Below, piece by piece: positions 26,940 through 36,417 of a DNA stretch of 64,000 nt. The stretch spans positions 124,001-188,000 of the forward strand of contig NZ_JACJTD010000002.1 in the NCBI RefSeq assembly GCF_014698505.1, written 5' to 3'. Within the stretch, counting starts at the first letter, position 1, and the number at the start of each line of letters is the position of its first letter. The translations under genes and the position numbers were made by a program. The notes beneath the pieces were generated by a model, which did not search any database, was not told the origin of the DNA, and saw nothing but the letters and a program-made list of their open reading frames with translations. Source of the stretch: Nostoc foliaceum FACHB-393. Lineage in GTDB: Bacteria > Cyanobacteriota > Cyanobacteriia > Cyanobacteriales > Nostocaceae.

Positions 26940-27989
26940 TTAATTACTATCCCTTGTTGCCAAAACTTTAGGTGGTTCAGGTTTCAGTAACCCATTCAAC
27001 AGGGATGCGGGACGTTGACTGTAAGGCCAAGCAAAAGCATGACGGAAAGCTGCATCCTGACAAGCTTGTAGTTGGGCAAAACTGATAATGTTATAAGTCA
27101 AGAGATTCTCATACTCAAATGGTAGACGCACATTGTGCAATCCAGCATTATCAGTACAGATAGCGATATCTACCCCAGCTTCAAAACAACGATCAAAAAC
27201 TAATTTGAGTTGACGGATATCCTGCAAAGTACCAGTTTTCAGGTAAGTTGTGGGGCAAACCTCTAAACACTGTCCGCGTTTAGCGACATCATTAAGTAAC
27301 TCTGGATATAGTAAGGGAATTTGGATGCCGTGACCGATTCGCATGAGATAGGGTAAGAGTTCGGGGTAACAGCCAGCAGTGGTTTCATATAAATGTCCGG
27401 TGGTCTTAACGCCCTGCGATCGCGCATAATCATATAAGCTAATCCATTCTTCTAAGCGATCGGCATAATAGCTATCACCCCCCGCTACATCTACTGCACA
27501 GACATACTGCTTATTTTGCGCCGCCAAATCAACAATCGCCTTGTTCACTTCATAAGGTAGGCGCGTGTGCATACAGAGAATTTGGCTAGTAACAATCGGA
27601 TATTCTGGCTGGTGGCTAGCAAGTCCTACTACTTGCACAATTTCTGTCATCTTGTCAATTCTCTGTGATTGATTCAGATGCTCAGGTGTCCGTAAATATG
27701 GAGTGTAACGCAGTTCCAGGTAAGCCAAATTTTCAAAAATGTAAGCACCCCGCACCAAGCGATAGATAAAGTAAGGTAAAGTCTCCACAGTTTGCACACT
27801 TTCTACGAGAGTGTGTAATTCTAAATACTCATCCAGGGTGTTGCGTGGGCGAGTATAAAAATCTTCAAATTCTGAATAGTCAGCAAAGCGAGAAATCAAA
27901 TCCGAAGAATGTCGCTCGAAATATCGCCATAAAACTCTGGGTACGACCGAGCCGCCCAGGTGCCTATGTAATTCAGCATATAAAGCCAT
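26940..27989 (-). CDS. Adenosine deaminase-family protein
   Basis: A 349-residue amidohydrolase of the adenosine/AMP deaminase family, which converts adenosine (or a related purine) to inosine. Metal-site residues are visible: LHRHLGGSV (H-x-H), TTGHLYETTAG, RIGHGIQI and CTDNAGLHN. The last differs from the usual T-D-D-P, so specificity may differ from classical adenosine deaminase. The frame runs back to 28133, but that 48-residue extension is encoded by a duplicated repeat element and a hydrophobic stretch; I therefore start at the ATG at 27989, directly before ALYAELHRHLGG. Confidence 0.85.
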   Translation of the reverse strand: MALYAELHRHLGGSVVPRVLWRYFERHSSDLISRFADYSEFEDFYTRPRNTLDEYLELHTLVESVQTVETLPYFIYRLVRGAYIFENLAYLELRYTPYLRTPEHLNQSQRIDKMTEIVQVVGLASHQPEYPIVTSQILCMHTRLPYEVNKAIVDLAAQNKQYVCAVDVAGGDSYYADRLEEWISLYDYARSQGVKTTGHLYETTAGCYPELLPYLMRIGHGIQIPLLYPELLNDVAKRGQCLEVCPTTYLKTGTLQDIRQLKLVFDRCFEAGVDIAICTDNAGLHNVRLPFEYENLLTYNIISFAQLQACQDAAFRHAFAWPYSQRPASLLNGLLKPEPPKVLATRDSN

Positions 27990-28073
27990 AGTGGTATTTT
28001 TAGGTAAAAATTTTATTAATTGTAACAAAAACATAGAAATAAAAAATCTATACTCGAAGAAATAATGAACATC

Positions 28074-28160
28074 GGGGGGAATCCCATCCCAACAAAAGGG
28101 GTGTCCAGGATAGCGGTCCGCCGATTTAGTCATTAGTCATTAGTCATTGGTACTAATGAC
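28074..28160 (-). repeat. Duplicated element, copy B
   Basis: On the minus strand the blocks run GTCATTAGTACCAATGACT, ACTAAATCGGCGG, TATCCTGGACACCCC and GATGGGATTCCC, in the same order as copy A at 17769-17875. It gives the adenosine deaminase frame a false N-terminus. Confidence 0.6.
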
Positions 28161-29941: not shown

Positions 29942-30253
29942 TTAGTTCTTTTTCACATCGCGAGCCATATTGAGGTAGTAGTCGTCAATTTTGGCATTAG
30001 GACGACGGCGGTTAGTGGCAGAAATTTTAGAAGTGTTATCCTGATTCGTTTTAATTGGCTCTTTTGCAGAAGCTTGCTTTATACCTTGCGCCTCATCAGA
30101 TTCCAAGAAATAATCAGACCTTGTAAATCCAAACAGGTTGGCAAAAAAACCAAATAAATTTCCTACAGCATTGGAAACACTTTTGAATAAAACACCAAAC
30201 AAGCCTTGAAGACGAAGGAACAAGTTCCGAACAATTTGAGTTAGACGAAACAT
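29942..30253 (-). CDS. Hypothetical protein with amphipathic N-terminal helices
   Basis: 103 residues. The first 45 are Phe/Leu/Gly-rich with regular spacing (LQGLFGVLFKSVSNAVGNLF, GFFANLFGF), likely membrane-associating helices rather than a signal peptide. The remainder is polar (Lys, Asn, Thr, Asp) and ends IDDYYLNMARDVKKN. I recognise no named family. GAGGG lies eight bases before the ATG at 30253. No operon partner. Confidence 0.7.
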   Translation of the reverse strand: MFRLTQIVRNLFLRLQGLFGVLFKSVSNAVGNLFGFFANLFGFTRSDYFLESDEAQGIKQASAKEPIKTNQDNTSKISATNRRRPNAKIDDYYLNMARDVKKN

Positions 30254-30522: not shown

Positions 30523-32814
30523 ATGACAAATCAGTTCTGGGAAAAAAGCATAGAAATCAATGCTACTCTAACCAACTTACTAGTTAACACCGTGCGTAGC
30601 TTATTCCTATATCGCAGCAAGCTACGCAAAGCGTCTGGTAGAGTTGCGCCTAGTCGTCAGACATCGCCTTTCATTCATCAAGGTTGGTGGCTTTTAAGGA
30701 AGCGTCTGCTGCCATTATTATGTCTGATATCATTCGTTACGGTATTGCTAATCAACAGCTTTGCCCCTAGCTTTGCCCAACTACCTCCTCAACCTCGTCA
30801 AGAAATTCGGGGGGTATGGCTGAGTGGTAACGATTTTAACGTTTTCAGAAATCGCTCAAAGGTGCAAGCAGCCATGAGCCAACTGCGGCAGCTAAACTTT
30901 AACACCGTTTATCCAGTAGTCTGGAACGATGGCTATACACATTATCCCAGCGCCATCATGCAAAAAAAGGGTATTCCCTTCTTCTTCAAAGGAACAGATG
31001 GACAAGATGTGATTGCAGACATTATCAGCCAAGCCCGCAGAGAAGGTCTACTAGCAATACCCTGGTTTGAATTTGGTTTCATGGTTCCCCTAAGTTCGGA
31101 ACTCGCATCCCAGCATCCAGATTGGCTGACACAAAAGCCGGATGGGACTCAAACTTCAATTAGTGCTGCGGGTGAGGTAGCGTGGTTGAATCCGTTTCAC
31201 CCGGAAGTGCAAAAGTTTATCACCGAACTCGTGATGGAAGTCATTACTCAATACGATGCTGATGGCGTTCAATTTGACGACCACATGAGTTTACCTGTGG
31301 ATTTTGGTTACGATAAATACACAATTAGTCTATATACTCAAGAAACGGGCAATCCTCCCCCACCGAATCCCCAAGCCCAAGCATGGATAAAATGGCGGGC
31401 AGATAAAATCACTGCATTCATGGTAGACCTCCACCAAACTGTGAAAGCTAGAAAACCGAATGCTATCTTCTCAGTTTCTCCCAATTACTATGATTTTGCC
31501 TACAAGCTGCAACTGCAAGACTGGCTCAACTGGGTACGGTTAGGTATTGTCGATGAGTTAGTCATGCAAGTATACCGTAATGATTTAGAAAGTTTTATCG
31601 CTCAAATTACCCGCCCAGAAATTTTAGAAACCCAAAAAATCATCCCAACTGGTATCGGTATTATGGCGGGGTTACGAAATCGCCCAGTTTCCATGCCACA
31701 AATCCAATCCCAGGTGCAAGCAGCGCAACAACGCGGTTTAGGTAGCGGCTTTTTCTACTACGAAAGCCTTTGGGATATCGCGCCTGAACCAGCAGCGCAA
31801 CGACAGTCAGCATTTGCGGCTCTTTTTCCAAACCCAGCGTTGCGCGATATCTCTCAAAATACACCCCGCAAACCAACTTTTGATACCATATCCCTACCTT
31901 TATATCCAAAACCTTCCCTTGGCCAACGTGTTCGTGGCTATTTTCTGGAAATAGCGATCGCAGGTGGTCAGCCAAGACGTATCTTATTAGATACAGGGTC
32001 AGCAGGGCTGCGAGTTCCCAAAGAGTTTTTAGGTAATGCTCCTATCCGCAAAACAGGACAAAATATCAAGGAAGTATTAAGCGATGGTACTATCCTGGAG
32101 GGAGAATTAGTTTATGCTAATGTCCGATTTGGTTTGCTTCCCGCCGCAGAACCAGTTCCGGTACAAGTTGTTACTAGCCGCCAATGTATTGCCCAAAAAC
32201 CTAATTGTTCAGCAAAGAGTGGTGCGCCATTTTCTGGTATTATCGGTGTCAACTATTTTGAAAAGTCACTTCCCTATAATCCGTTGAGAAAATTACCAGG
32301 AAATCTGAGTAACGGATTTATAGTGATTGGAAATGGTGGTAGTAACAACAATGGCAACCTAATTCTCGGTTTGACTGCTAATAACCAAGCAGGTTTCAAA
32401 ATGGCTCCTTGGAGTAAACAAAGCGAAATTAATGGTGTACCCGGTAACAGATGGGACTCTCAACTGAGCAAAGTTTGTTTAACTCTTGCTGGGAGTTCTG
32501 CTAAAAATTCTTGTAATGGCAAAATGATCACTGATACTGGAACCATTAATGGTTTGACTGAATTCAAGTCAGCTTCTACAGCAGGTAAGCTCAAGCCAGG
32601 AGTGTTACGTTCAGCTTTGAAAGTAGCAATTAATAGCATTTTTGATTACAGCCTGACACCAGGAACCCGCGACGGATTTAATCGCTGGAATTTGAGTATT
32701 TCGCCACAAGCAGAACTTCCTATATTTGTAAATACTGGCATCGCCTTTTTTGATAAATACGATGTCCTCTTTGACCAAGTTAATGGAAGACAGGGTTTTC
32801 GCAGTCGGCGGTAA
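30523..32814 (+). CDS. GHL10 glycosidase-like protein fused to pepsin-like protease domain
   Basis: 763 residues. After a long basic N-terminus there is one membrane/signal segment (about 62-86, ending SFAQ). Residues ~92-430 match the GH10-like GHL10 family (DUF187): EIRGVWLSGNDF, FNTVYPVVWNDGYTHYPS, DGVQFDDHMSLP with catalytic-type acids. Residues ~470-760 resemble a bilobal aspartic protease: ILLDTGSAGLRVP (Asp490) and MITDTGTINGLT (Asp671), 181 residues apart as in pepsins. Located outside the cytoplasm, it could act on cell wall or sheath glycans plus protein. Residues ~25-49 look repeat-derived. Not seen by me elsewhere as a fusion. Confidence 0.8.
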   Translation: MTNQFWEKSIEINATLTNLLVNTVRSLFLYRSKLRKASGRVAPSRQTSPFIHQGWWLLRKRLLPLLCLISFVTVLLINSFAPSFAQLPPQPRQEIRGVWLSGNDFNVFRNRSKVQAAMSQLRQLNFNTVYPVVWNDGYTHYPSAIMQKKGIPFFFKGTDGQDVIADIISQARREGLLAIPWFEFGFMVPLSSELASQHPDWLTQKPDGTQTSISAAGEVAWLNPFHPEVQKFITELVMEVITQYDADGVQFDDHMSLPVDFGYDKYTISLYTQETGNPPPPNPQAQAWIKWRADKITAFMVDLHQTVKARKPNAIFSVSPNYYDFAYKLQLQDWLNWVRLGIVDELVMQVYRNDLESFIAQITRPEILETQKIIPTGIGIMAGLRNRPVSMPQIQSQVQAAQQRGLGSGFFYYESLWDIAPEPAAQRQSAFAALFPNPALRDISQNTPRKPTFDTISLPLYPKPSLGQRVRGYFLEIAIAGGQPRRILLDTGSAGLRVPKEFLGNAPIRKTGQNIKEVLSDGTILEGELVYANVRFGLLPAAEPVPVQVVTSRQCIAQKPNCSAKSGAPFSGIIGVNYFEKSLPYNPLRKLPGNLSNGFIVIGNGGSNNNGNLILGLTANNQAGFKMAPWSKQSEINGVPGNRWDSQLSKVCLTLAGSSAKNSCNGKMITDTGTINGLTEFKSASTAGKLKPGVLRSALKVAINSIFDYSLTPGTRDGFNRWNLSISPQAELPIFVNTGIAFFDKYDVLFDQVNGRQGFRSRR

Positions 32815-32854: not shown

Positions 32855-33763
32855 CTAATTTTCCTGAACCAGCAAAACTGACTTCACGGGACGCTTGATA
32901 GGATTTCCTTCCAAATCAACCTTCCCGTAAAAGGTTTTGCCCTTGTAATAAAGTGAAGACGAACTCCCCCCATCCAGATTCATTGCTTGATCAGCACCAA
33001 GAGTTTTCATAAAATCAGCTAATGCTGGTAAGGATATCCCAGAGTTAGCGGGAGCCGAGGGTTTTTGAGCCACCATAACTAAAATAACGCTGCCATCACG
33101 AGTGATACCCACAGCAGTTCTGGCGTTGGGTTGGTTGCTGCCAAGTGCATCTCGTTTATTGGAATTATCCACAAAGCCCTCTTTTACTGACGTGAGTTCT
33201 GGTAATAGGCGTGGGCCAGCACCTATAGCATCGACTAACTGACAACCTGCTGGTGGTAACTGACTGTGTAGGGCAATAGAATAACTGATAGTTTGCCCAC
33301 ATGAGTAGCGGCGGAATTCTGCACGATTGAATATTTGACTCAGGTAAGGTTTTAAGTTGGGATTGTTCACCAGTCGCTCATTTTCCTTGGGGTCAGCTAC
33401 CAACTTCCCTTGTAGGACAACGTAAGATGTCGATTTTTGATTGGCTGGGTCAAAAAAGCCTGCGTTCAAAATAGCTACGGCTCGATGCTTCTGGGCAAAT
33501 TCCTCTACAGTGGCTACCTTCTGTGATAATTCAGGAGTCACCAAAAATCTGCTATTGGCTGGAATTAACAAAATGTGAGCTATGCTTTGGGGCAAAGTGC
33601 GCTCGAAGTAGCGGATAGTTTTTGGTGGTGAAGATGCAACAGTCGGTATTGACGGTGTTGAAGAACGCAAATTAAACCACAACACCATTGTCAAACTAAT
33701 TAATATCAAAGCCAGTAGTTTGATTTTTCTCACATTTAAACCCACTGCGGTTAGCTCAAACAA
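32855..33763 (-). CDS. Phosphodiester glycosidase (NAGPA/DUF2233) family protein
   Basis: 302 residues with an N-terminal membrane/signal segment (about 14-32, LLALILISLTMVLWF) and a NAGPA-type domain. Recognised motifs are AILNAGFFDP, NARTAVGITRDGSVILVMV and QAMNLDGGSSSSLYYKGK, typical of enzymes that remove a sugar from a phosphodiester link. Two Cys (YSCG, AGCQL) could form a disulfide in the periplasm. It converges on the glycosidase-protease fusion gene; both are predicted cell-envelope enzymes. ATG at 33763. Confidence 0.88.
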   Translation of the reverse strand: MFELTAVGLNVRKIKLLALILISLTMVLWFNLRSSTPSIPTVASSPPKTIRYFERTLPQSIAHILLIPANSRFLVTPELSQKVATVEEFAQKHRAVAILNAGFFDPANQKSTSYVVLQGKLVADPKENERLVNNPNLKPYLSQIFNRAEFRRYSCGQTISYSIALHSQLPPAGCQLVDAIGAGPRLLPELTSVKEGFVDNSNKRDALGSNQPNARTAVGITRDGSVILVMVAQKPSAPANSGISLPALADFMKTLGADQAMNLDGGSSSSLYYKGKTFYGKVDLEGNPIKRPVKSVLLVQEN

Positions 33764-34215: not shown

Positions 34216-36384
34216 TTAGCTATCTCCTGTAACTGATTCCAATTCTAGAGACAGCGAATGTGTATCTCTGAATGTTGAGGCAGGTAAGTACACTGTAAAT
34301 TGAGTGCCTCTGCCTACTTGACTGTAAACATTGACAAAACCACCGTGATTTTTAATAATACCCAACGCCGTGGAAAGTCCTAAACCTGTGCCTTTGCCTA
34401 CCTCTTTGGTAGTGAAAAATGGTTCAAAAATCCGTTGCTGGACTTCCGACGACATCCCCATACCAGTATCCGTCACCACGATCGCAATATAAGAACCCAC
34501 TTTCGCATCAATATTTATCTGGGCAGAATGTTCACCAATCACCAGATTTTCCGCCGCAATCCTCAATATACCGCCACTAGACATAGCATCGCGGGCGTTG
34601 ACTACTAAATTTATCAGCACTTGATGTAGTTGAGTTGTGTCTCCACGTACATACCATAGATTCTTGGGAATATCTGTCTGGCAGATGATGGATTTAGGGA
34701 ATGTTTGAACGATAATTTGCTCAATTTCTGCCATCAAAGGCTGAATTTGGACAATTGTCTGTTTATCTTCAATACCCCGTGCAAAGGACAACACTTGCTT
34801 GAGCAAATTAGCGCCGCGTTTGACATTATTTTCTAGGGTTTGCAGTATTTGCTGACTCTGCGAATCGGGCAATTTCTTCTGCAACAGTTGAACTGACATT
34901 AAAATTGGGGATAGTATATTGTTGAGGTCATGGGCGATACCGCCAGCTAGGGTGCCGATACTCTCCAAACGTTGCGATCGCAGAAGTTGAGCTTCCAATT
35001 GTTTCTGCTGCGTAATCTCGGTGTTCACACTCAAAATGGATTTGGGTTGTCCATTATCATGTCGGATCAGTGTCCACCGACTTTCAAGGATAATTACTTT
35101 GCCTTCCCTTGTTAATTGATGCAACTCACCGCGCCACTCACCCGCTTTCATTACCTTCAAGTAAGCATCTTCTAACTGTGGTGAAATCTCTTTATACAAA
35201 AGTTGCAAAACATTTTTGCCCACAGCTTCCTCAGCCTTCCAGCCGTATAGACGTTCAGCACCTTTATTCCAAAACAAGATTTGGTTGTGGATATCTCGCA
35301 CCAGAATCGCGTCAGTTGATACATCCAGCAGCGCTGCTTGTTCACGGATTTTCTGTTCTGCGTGTTTTTGCTGGGTTATATCTCGCGTCAGTGCCAAATG
35401 AATGAAGGTGCCATCAAATTCGTTACATAGTGGTACGGCATGAGTTTCCATGTAGCGGCGGGTACCTCTAAATCCAATGATTTCAAACTCCAAAGTCCCC
35501 TTGTTACCTTGGCAGATACTTTTATGCAAGTCGGCAAAGGCTGCTCTATACTCTGGCAAAATTACGGCATCAGCTGGTTTACCAATCAAAACATCAGCAC
35601 TTTCCACTTCCAGCATTGCCAGTCCATAGGCATTAATTTCTAAAATGGTGCCATCCCTGGCAATTAACTCGATGCATTCTGGTTCTGCATCTATCATCGC
35701 TCGTAAACGATTTTCGCTTTGGCGTAGGGCCAGTTCCGTCTGCTGAAGTTGCCTGATATAACGCCACAACAAGTCATACAGCAGCCCCACCAGTACTAAA
35801 TCCACAACAGCAGCGATAAAAAATGTAACTATCGCCTTTTGGGAATTTGCTTGTGACTGCTGCATTCCCTGCTGTAATAAATTTTGCTCCAGTTCTAAAG
35901 AGTCGTGAATAAGTTGTTGGATTTCTTTGCCAATTTGCTTGTCTTTGTCAGATAAGATTCGCTGCCGAACTGCTTCAAATCCCTGGTTTTGCCTGAGGTA
36001 AATTTCTTGTTGCAGGATGTTGAGCCTGTTGCTAATTTTTGGCTCCAACAAAGAAATCCACTGCTGCTTTTGATGGTTTTGGGCAGTTAACTTGCTGAGA
36101 ATCTGAATATTGCTATTAGTTTGTTGATAAGCTGCAAGATAGGTTTTTAGATCATCTGCATCTGCTGTAATTAGGTAATTACGTTGTGCCGTTTCGGTAT
36201 CTTTGAGTGTAGATTGGATACTTTGAAGTTGAGTAACCACTTCATAGGAGTATATCACCCCTTGCTGGTTGTAAATCAGCTTAACAGTGTTGCTATAGGA
36301 GACTACAGCGTTAGTAAATATAACTGCCAACGCTAAGATGAATATTGCTTTCAGCTTTTGGACTCGATACCATTTTTTGATCAT
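34216..36384 (-). CDS. Membrane sensor histidine kinase, CHASE3-PAS-PAS
   Basis: 722 residues. Two membrane helices (about 13-30 and 184-206) frame a CHASE3-like sensor region (TLKDTETAQRNYLITADADD). Two PAS domains follow (about 225-340 and 345-460), then HisKA with GGIAHDLNNILSPIL (His485) and HATPase (NLVVNARDAMS, TDTGMGMS, GKGTGLGLST). The H-D-L-N-N box marks the NtrB-like/hybrid class. No receiver domain is attached. The frame opens 11 codons earlier (36417), but the ATG at 36384 begins the typical short basic start and has AAAGGG upstream. Confidence 0.9.
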   Translation of the reverse strand: MIKKWYRVQKLKAIFILALAVIFTNAVVSYSNTVKLIYNQQGVIYSYEVVTQLQSIQSTLKDTETAQRNYLITADADDLKTYLAAYQQTNSNIQILSKLTAQNHQKQQWISLLEPKISNRLNILQQEIYLRQNQGFEAVRQRILSDKDKQIGKEIQQLIHDSLELEQNLLQQGMQQSQANSQKAIVTFFIAAVVDLVLVGLLYDLLWRYIRQLQQTELALRQSENRLRAMIDAEPECIELIARDGTILEINAYGLAMLEVESADVLIGKPADAVILPEYRAAFADLHKSICQGNKGTLEFEIIGFRGTRRYMETHAVPLCNEFDGTFIHLALTRDITQQKHAEQKIREQAALLDVSTDAILVRDIHNQILFWNKGAERLYGWKAEEAVGKNVLQLLYKEISPQLEDAYLKVMKAGEWRGELHQLTREGKVIILESRWTLIRHDNGQPKSILSVNTEITQQKQLEAQLLRSQRLESIGTLAGGIAHDLNNILSPILMSVQLLQKKLPDSQSQQILQTLENNVKRGANLLKQVLSFARGIEDKQTIVQIQPLMAEIEQIIVQTFPKSIICQTDIPKNLWYVRGDTTQLHQVLINLVVNARDAMSSGGILRIAAENLVIGEHSAQINIDAKVGSYIAIVVTDTGMGMSSEVQQRIFEPFFTTKEVGKGTGLGLSTALGIIKNHGGFVNVYSQVGRGTQFTVYLPASTFRDTHSLSLELESVTGDS

Positions 36385-36417
36385 GCGATCGCCCTTTCTG
36401 CCGCAGATGCCCTCCAT

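Follow-up and report, generated by a model that had tools for sequence, protein, structure and literature searches.

A GHL10 glycosidase-like domain joined to a probable pepsin-like aspartic protease in an apparently exported protein of Nostoc

Does the cyanobacterium Nostoc foliaceum FACHB-393 carry a protein in which a glycosidase-like domain of the GHL10 family is fused to a pepsin-like aspartic protease, and is the second half really a protease? The question is raised by one gene in a stretch of 64,000 nucleotides (contig NZ_JACJTD010000002.1, positions 124,001 to 188,000; the window) of a genome of 8.87 Mb. An earlier note on the window proposed the fusion. The gene is a single open reading frame (ORF) of 763 residues that begins with an ATG and has no internal stops. 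It probably encodes one exported protein of the envelope or extracellular matrix, in which a GHL10 domain is connected by a short linker to a bilobed pepsin-like protease of the PecA and PE-PGRS_C kind. The gene and the elements that bear on the pepsin-like half are the following.

30523 to 32814, plus strand: whole gene, 763-residue fusion protein, apparently exported; full-length fusion in 53 of 56 loci
31909 to 32811, plus strand: pepsin-like aspartic protease domain, residues 463-763 (hhalign to the pepsin profile; PF20729)
31990 to 31998, plus strand: first catalytic motif DTG with Asp490 (DTGSAGL); DTG in all 56 rows that cover it
32533 to 32541, plus strand: second catalytic motif DTG with Asp671 (DTGTING); Asp in all 56 rows that cover it
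32236 to 32250, plus strand: GIIGV, residues 572-576, with the lobe 1 psi-loop glycine Gly575, aligned to pepsin Gly122
32731 to 32751, plus strand: NTGIAFF, residues 737-743, with the lobe 2 psi-loop glycine Gly739, aligned to pepsin Gly302

The relationship with pepsin is seen when a 14-row family profile of residues 463-763 is aligned to the pepsin profile with hhalign (E 2.7e-8, 263 columns). The alignment places Asp490 on Asp32 and Asp671 on Asp215 of pepsin, and the C-terminal stretch is also in register. Each aspartate stands in a D-[ST]-G-[ST] motif, DTGS at 490 and DTGT at 671. The earlier note had given the distance between the two motifs as 181 residues, near that of pepsin, and the first motif as DTGSAGL; both hold on the ORF, the corresponding residues 32 and 215 of the pepsin reference sequence being 183 apart. 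When residues 463-763 were shuffled, two DTG motifs 165-200 residues apart arose in 12 of 100,000 sequences. The hydrophobic-hydrophobic-Gly motif of the psi loop is present as IIG in lobe 1; in lobe 2 the glycine is aligned but N-T precedes it. PE-PGRS_C (PF20729) matches the domain alone with 34.4 bits and within the whole protein with 31.4 (gathering cut-off 33). The comparison with DUF3443 (PF11925), which the earlier note had suggested, gives a match at the level of the threshold (gathering cut-off 25; 25.2 bits with the domain by itself and 22.5 with the complete protein). The matches of both families and of Asp_protease_2 all stop within lobe 1.

The N-terminal half contains the following elements.

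30802 to 31707, plus strand: GHL10 glycosidase-like domain, residues 94-395 (PF02638; Foldseek to Cwp19, 5oq3)
31276 to 31281, plus strand: Asp252-Asp253, aligned to Cwp19 Asp195-Asp196
31063 to 31080, plus strand: WFEFGF, residues 181-186, including Glu183; the Cwp19 segment reads WFNPYR

Residues 94-395 match PF02638 with 350.5 bits (cut-off 27.9, E 9.8e-105, Pfam). In a predicted structure covering residues 81-763, pLDDT per ten-residue block is 63-94 for 34 of the 36 blocks in this half and 56 and 48 for the remaining two, and a Foldseek search with the model returns Cwp19 (5oq3, E 6.2e-17) at the top, followed by the hydrolase domain of PgaB. The active-site aspartate pair is retained, and Asp253, in QFDDH aligned to FDDY, is the equivalent of the active-site residue Asp196 of Cwp19. 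The position of Cwp19 Arg132 is occupied in the alignment by Met187, window positions 31063-31083 reading WFEFGFM. According to the Cwp19 paper, this arginine is conserved in GHL10 and its role is conjecture, so membership of the family is decided by the profile match. Within the own genome, the four closest GHL10 paralogues (L002-L005) have WFEFGF or WFEYGF; another paralogue, L007, has WFNPYR, and L006 has neither. Since methionine replaces the arginine, a glutamate stands nearby and the four paralogues are alike, a different catalytic partner is possible in this GHL10 lineage.

The earlier note had placed both parts outside the cytoplasm, and the protein does look exported.

30691 to 30777, plus strand: signal-peptide-like segment, roughly residues 57-85, with basic residues, a hydrophobic stretch and AxA in this order (hydropathy and inspection)

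The 19-residue stretch of highest hydrophobicity begins at residue 62, with basic residues before it, and the segment ends, as judged by eye, in an AxA-type site, SFA|QLP; together these features support export of the fusion protein. In a comparison of 16 relatives, the stretch directly N-terminal of EIRGVW is similar and the residues further upstream are variable, which suggests that the true start may lie 3' of the first ATG.

The same fusion was sought in the Nostocales, as the earlier note had advised, and it is conserved there. It is present as one ORF of 714-835 residues in 53 of the 56 fetched loci; the other three (L057, L060 and L061) lie at contig ends. L023, L032 and L054 are counted as fused, although the exact QFDDH is absent from them, because their ORFs of 742-765 residues align over the GHL10 part. 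L060 and L061 belong to one Desmonostoc genome, in which the two ends of the gene lie on two different contigs; a repeat may interrupt the gene there. The ten closest fetched loci are from Nostoc species, with protease halves 91-95% identical to that of the window; records nearest to the own genome may be omitted from this set. Among 386 genomes drawn from the phylum the protease domain was found in 14, of which 12 belong to the own family and 2 to another. Eleven of the 12 have it in one open frame of 725-800 residues, and in one (G278) it is split over two contigs. GHL10 was matched in 39 of 40 genomes of the own family, in 11 of them within a frame of 739-800 residues, and in all 11 the protease match lies inside that frame. 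The protease match was not found in the other 29, an empty answer which alone shows nothing; the same alignment did, however, match in all 6 of the sister genomes that have the long frame and in the 14 of 386 genomes. A lone GHL10 gene, 66-71% identical, is also present in 10 of the 11 fusion genomes. In a tree of 41 hand-chosen GHL10 domains, of which 21 are fused and 20 lone, with the root placed on two own paralogues, the fused domains form one clade with support 100/99, which suggests a single origin; two of the fused rows, L054 and L123, apparently come from the same genome. The simplest account of these sequences is one duplication of GHL10 accompanied by capture of a protease domain.

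Relatives of the protease domain also occur alone. Two lipoprotein-like proteins of 371 residues, from another cyanobacterial family with 3-Mb genomes (L077 1255-2370 and L076 1354-2469; genomes G177 and G332), are 32% identical to the window domain and have the motifs DTG and DSG; no GHL10 is among their Pfam matches. Plasmid searches gave one weak relative, a hypothetical protein of 357 residues on a Rahnella plasmid (L099 2333-3406), which has two DTG motifs and is 27-32% identical to the protease domain.

Variation of the catalytic motifs was followed in an alignment of 57 sequences, the window protein and the 56 loci, in which each motif is covered by 56. Alignments A1 and A2 contain 24 and 22 of these sequences, A3 combines the window protein with 10 loci and three distant relatives, and VIA-align spans approximately domain residues 27-113, with one row reaching 135. 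The second motif reads DTG in 38 rows, DTA in 12, DSG in 4 and DTR in 2. On a tree of 55 rows, which leaves out L060 and L061, DTA requires 5 changes, of which at least 3 are forced by supported branches. The ratio of nonsynonymous to synonymous substitution rates (dN/dS) against 11 chosen relatives is 0.07-0.11 for the GHL10 domain and 0.10-0.26 for the protease half. In 7 pairs of relatives without DTG the protease half gives 0.15-0.41, except for a near-identical pair with 0.78 (dS 0.009). Both halves are thus under purifying selection; the protease half is constrained less than GHL10, even where the glycine is lost. With DTG, DTA and DTR, the close relatives form a natural series in which the need for the second glycine could be tested directly.

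A number of observations weigh against a pepsin-like protease in the C-terminal half. PF00026, the A1 family, is absent from the Pfam matches of the protein at E values up to 10, and no match above its cut-off was found in 6 genomes searched, the own genome included. Compared with the pepsin profile without its relatives, the window sequence reaches a probability of 20% (E 0.0011), and lobe 2 alone aligns over 17 columns, onto lobe 1 of pepsin. PF20729 is unspecific, its first third also matching short open frames in other cyanobacteria. The flap position Tyr75 is Leu519 in the sequence alignment. The second-motif glycine is replaced by alanine, or by arginine (L055 and L056), in 14 of 56 rows and in several separate lineages, the aspartate being retained, and dN/dS of the protease half is 1.4 to 3 times that of GHL10, pair by pair. 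The AlphaFold model of the protease domain has a pLDDT of 40.7 and is fair only in part of lobe 1; the lack of a usable model is probably due to alignments that contained close relatives only. Foldseek with this model gave 4ehc at E 0.21 and TM about 0.2, with unrelated chains at ranks 8-10. The fusion proposed in the earlier note stands as an in-frame protein related to the bilobed pepsin-type proteases, but it is not formally assigned to A1, PF00026 being unmatched and the flap tyrosine absent. It is not formally assigned to PecA either (NCBIfam NF038019, 26.7 bits for the domain alone against an equivalog cut-off of 150), and no PE family is among the 11 Pfam matches of the whole protein.

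The strongest rival, on account of the DTA and DTR relatives and the missing flap tyrosine, is a C-terminal domain that keeps the pepsin fold but is no protease, its cleft binding a peptide or a wall component and GHL10 being the sole enzyme. The repeated loss of the second glycine, with at least 3 of the 5 changes to DTA forced, the leucine at the flap and the faster evolution of the domain all agree with it, as does PE_PGRS16, for which no proteolysis was detected in its structure study. Both aspartates are nevertheless retained in all covering rows, even those without the glycine, both motifs are complete in the window protein, and DTG and DSG are preserved in both lone cyanobacterial relatives. 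We regard an inactive fold as rather unlikely.

Two other explanations concern the extent of the domain and of the gene. Only the first half might be protease-like, a single retropepsin-like lobe of the DUF3443 or Asp_protease_2 type working as a dimer, followed by an unrelated remainder. This would explain why the PE-PGRS_C, DUF3443 and Asp_protease_2 matches end in lobe 1, why PF20729 matches short cyanobacterial frames over its first third only, why lobe 2 alone goes unrecognised and why no more than part of lobe 1 is modelled fairly well. The full-length profile alignment, however, sets Asp671 on Asp215 and Gly739 on Gly302, none of 100 shuffles of lobe 2 matches its alignment length, and a second D-T/S-G is retained in the lone relatives and in the Rahnella plasmid protein; a single lobe is improbable. 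Finally, the join could be an assembly or sequencing error between two genes, and the earlier note had named separate genes in all relatives as the finding that would point to one. The one-ORF fusions contradict this: they are found in 53 of 56 loci and stem from many assemblies, including two titled nearly complete genomes, and in 11 of 40 family genomes the protease match falls within a single open frame of 739-800 residues. An error was rejected on these grounds and deserves next to no credence.

Two cysteine pairs in the protease half are possible disulfides.

32185 to 32208, plus strand: Cys555 and Cys562, invariant in all 24 rows of alignment A1 and all 14 of alignment A3
32476 to 32514, plus strand: Cys652 and Cys664, just N-terminal of the second DTG, invariant in all 24 fused rows of alignment A1

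The second pair is not retained in the lone relatives. Compared with the other 23 rows of alignment A1, only the window protein lacks two residues in lobe 2, near domain residues 235-236 and window position 32611 (VLRS--ALKV). The own genome contains another PE-PGRS_C match, a weak one (G000:C13:130716-130886; 21.3 bits, below the cut-off), which lies in an open frame of 368 residues.

The gene neighbourhood was compared in the 56 loci, which extend no more than 4 kb to either side of the protease match and in part less, where a contig ends. The small ORF at 29942-30253 is near the fusion in 11 loci, from near relatives only. The convergent neighbour at 32855-33763 (minus strand), by eye presumably an exported phosphodiester glycosidase, is beside it in 8 loci, all near relatives. 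A kinase at 34216-36417 was found in 7 loci of near relatives, plus one local match of 36% identity in L043, and the ORF at 26940-28133 in 3, again near relatives only. As the neighbours are kept nearly only in near relatives, the gene appears to stand alone and its neighbourhood is hardly informative.

The closest characterised kin of the protease half are the mycobacterial proteins PecA and PE_PGRS16. The protein is a new combination of known kinds of domain, with an apparently exported PecA relative in cyanobacteria. The earlier note had stressed the rarity of pepsin-type proteases in bacteria; as an extracytoplasmic bacterial protease with a pepsin fold, PecA, has already been characterised, the protease half is less isolated than was claimed. 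PecA of Mycobacterium marinum is described as a protease of the cell surface whose substrates are itself and exported proteins, cleavage being abolished by a change of a catalytic aspartate. DigH of Escherichia coli is presumably a GHL10 protein. It degrades denuded glycan strands, and Cwp19, also a GHL10 protein, acts on peptidoglycan and is called a lytic transglycosylase (PMC6016235). Bacterial pepsin homologues without signal peptides were described in 2009 from seven species. The cited papers also include PMC6819658, PMC12288456, PMC5765458, PMC2761423, PMC9895726 and PMC10936207. No description of a GHL10-protease fusion was found in the titles and abstract starts of the open-licence papers that the literature searches listed, one of them listing 12 of 2,973. 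A 'family 10 glycosylhydrolase' from another Nostoc appears with one weak peptide in a proteomics table and is not used as evidence.

The activities of PecA, Cwp19 and DigH suggest an envelope or matrix enzyme with glycan binding or cleavage by GHL10 and proteolysis, perhaps self-processing, by the C-terminal domain. The N-terminal (beta/alpha)8 domain would act on or hold a glycan, a cell-wall or sheath polysaccharide, and would thereby place or assist the PecA-like protease at the envelope. The Asp490/Asp671 pair would cleave peptide bonds in glycan-bound proteins or in its own chain, by analogy with PecA. More tentatively, the protein may be a bifunctional enzyme in which GHL10 opens or holds the glycan and the protease cuts the proteins anchored there, and which arose once in the Nostocales by GHL10 duplication and capture of a PecA-like domain. 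If the pepsin-like reading is true, exported bacterial pepsin-fold proteins extend beyond mycobacterial PecA through a conserved domain fused to a glycosidase-like one. To our knowledge, the cyanobacteria that carry the fusion are not known as pathogens.

The fusion protein shares with Cwp19 of Clostridioides difficile (PDB 5OQ2/5OQ3) the GHL10 domain and the active-site aspartate pair. It differs in Met187 at the Arg132 site, with Glu183 nearby, and in its protease part, of which the available Cwp19 text makes no mention. Like the A1 protease pepsin, it has two D-T-G motifs, here 181 residues apart, and the psi-loop glycines, and its C-terminal stretch aligns in register. The bacterial A1 proteins described in 2009, a family with homologues in Colwellia, Shewanella, Marinomonas and Sinorhizobium, are without signal peptides, unlike the fusion protein, which looks exported. 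With the mycobacterial aspartic protease domains of PecA/PE_PGRS35, PE_PGRS16 (PDB 4EHC) and PE26 it has in common a pepsin-like domain with DTG/DSG motifs and, apparently, export, sequence similarity being detected in lobe 1 only. Unlike the members of this group, it has no PE domain match and carries a GHL10 domain instead.
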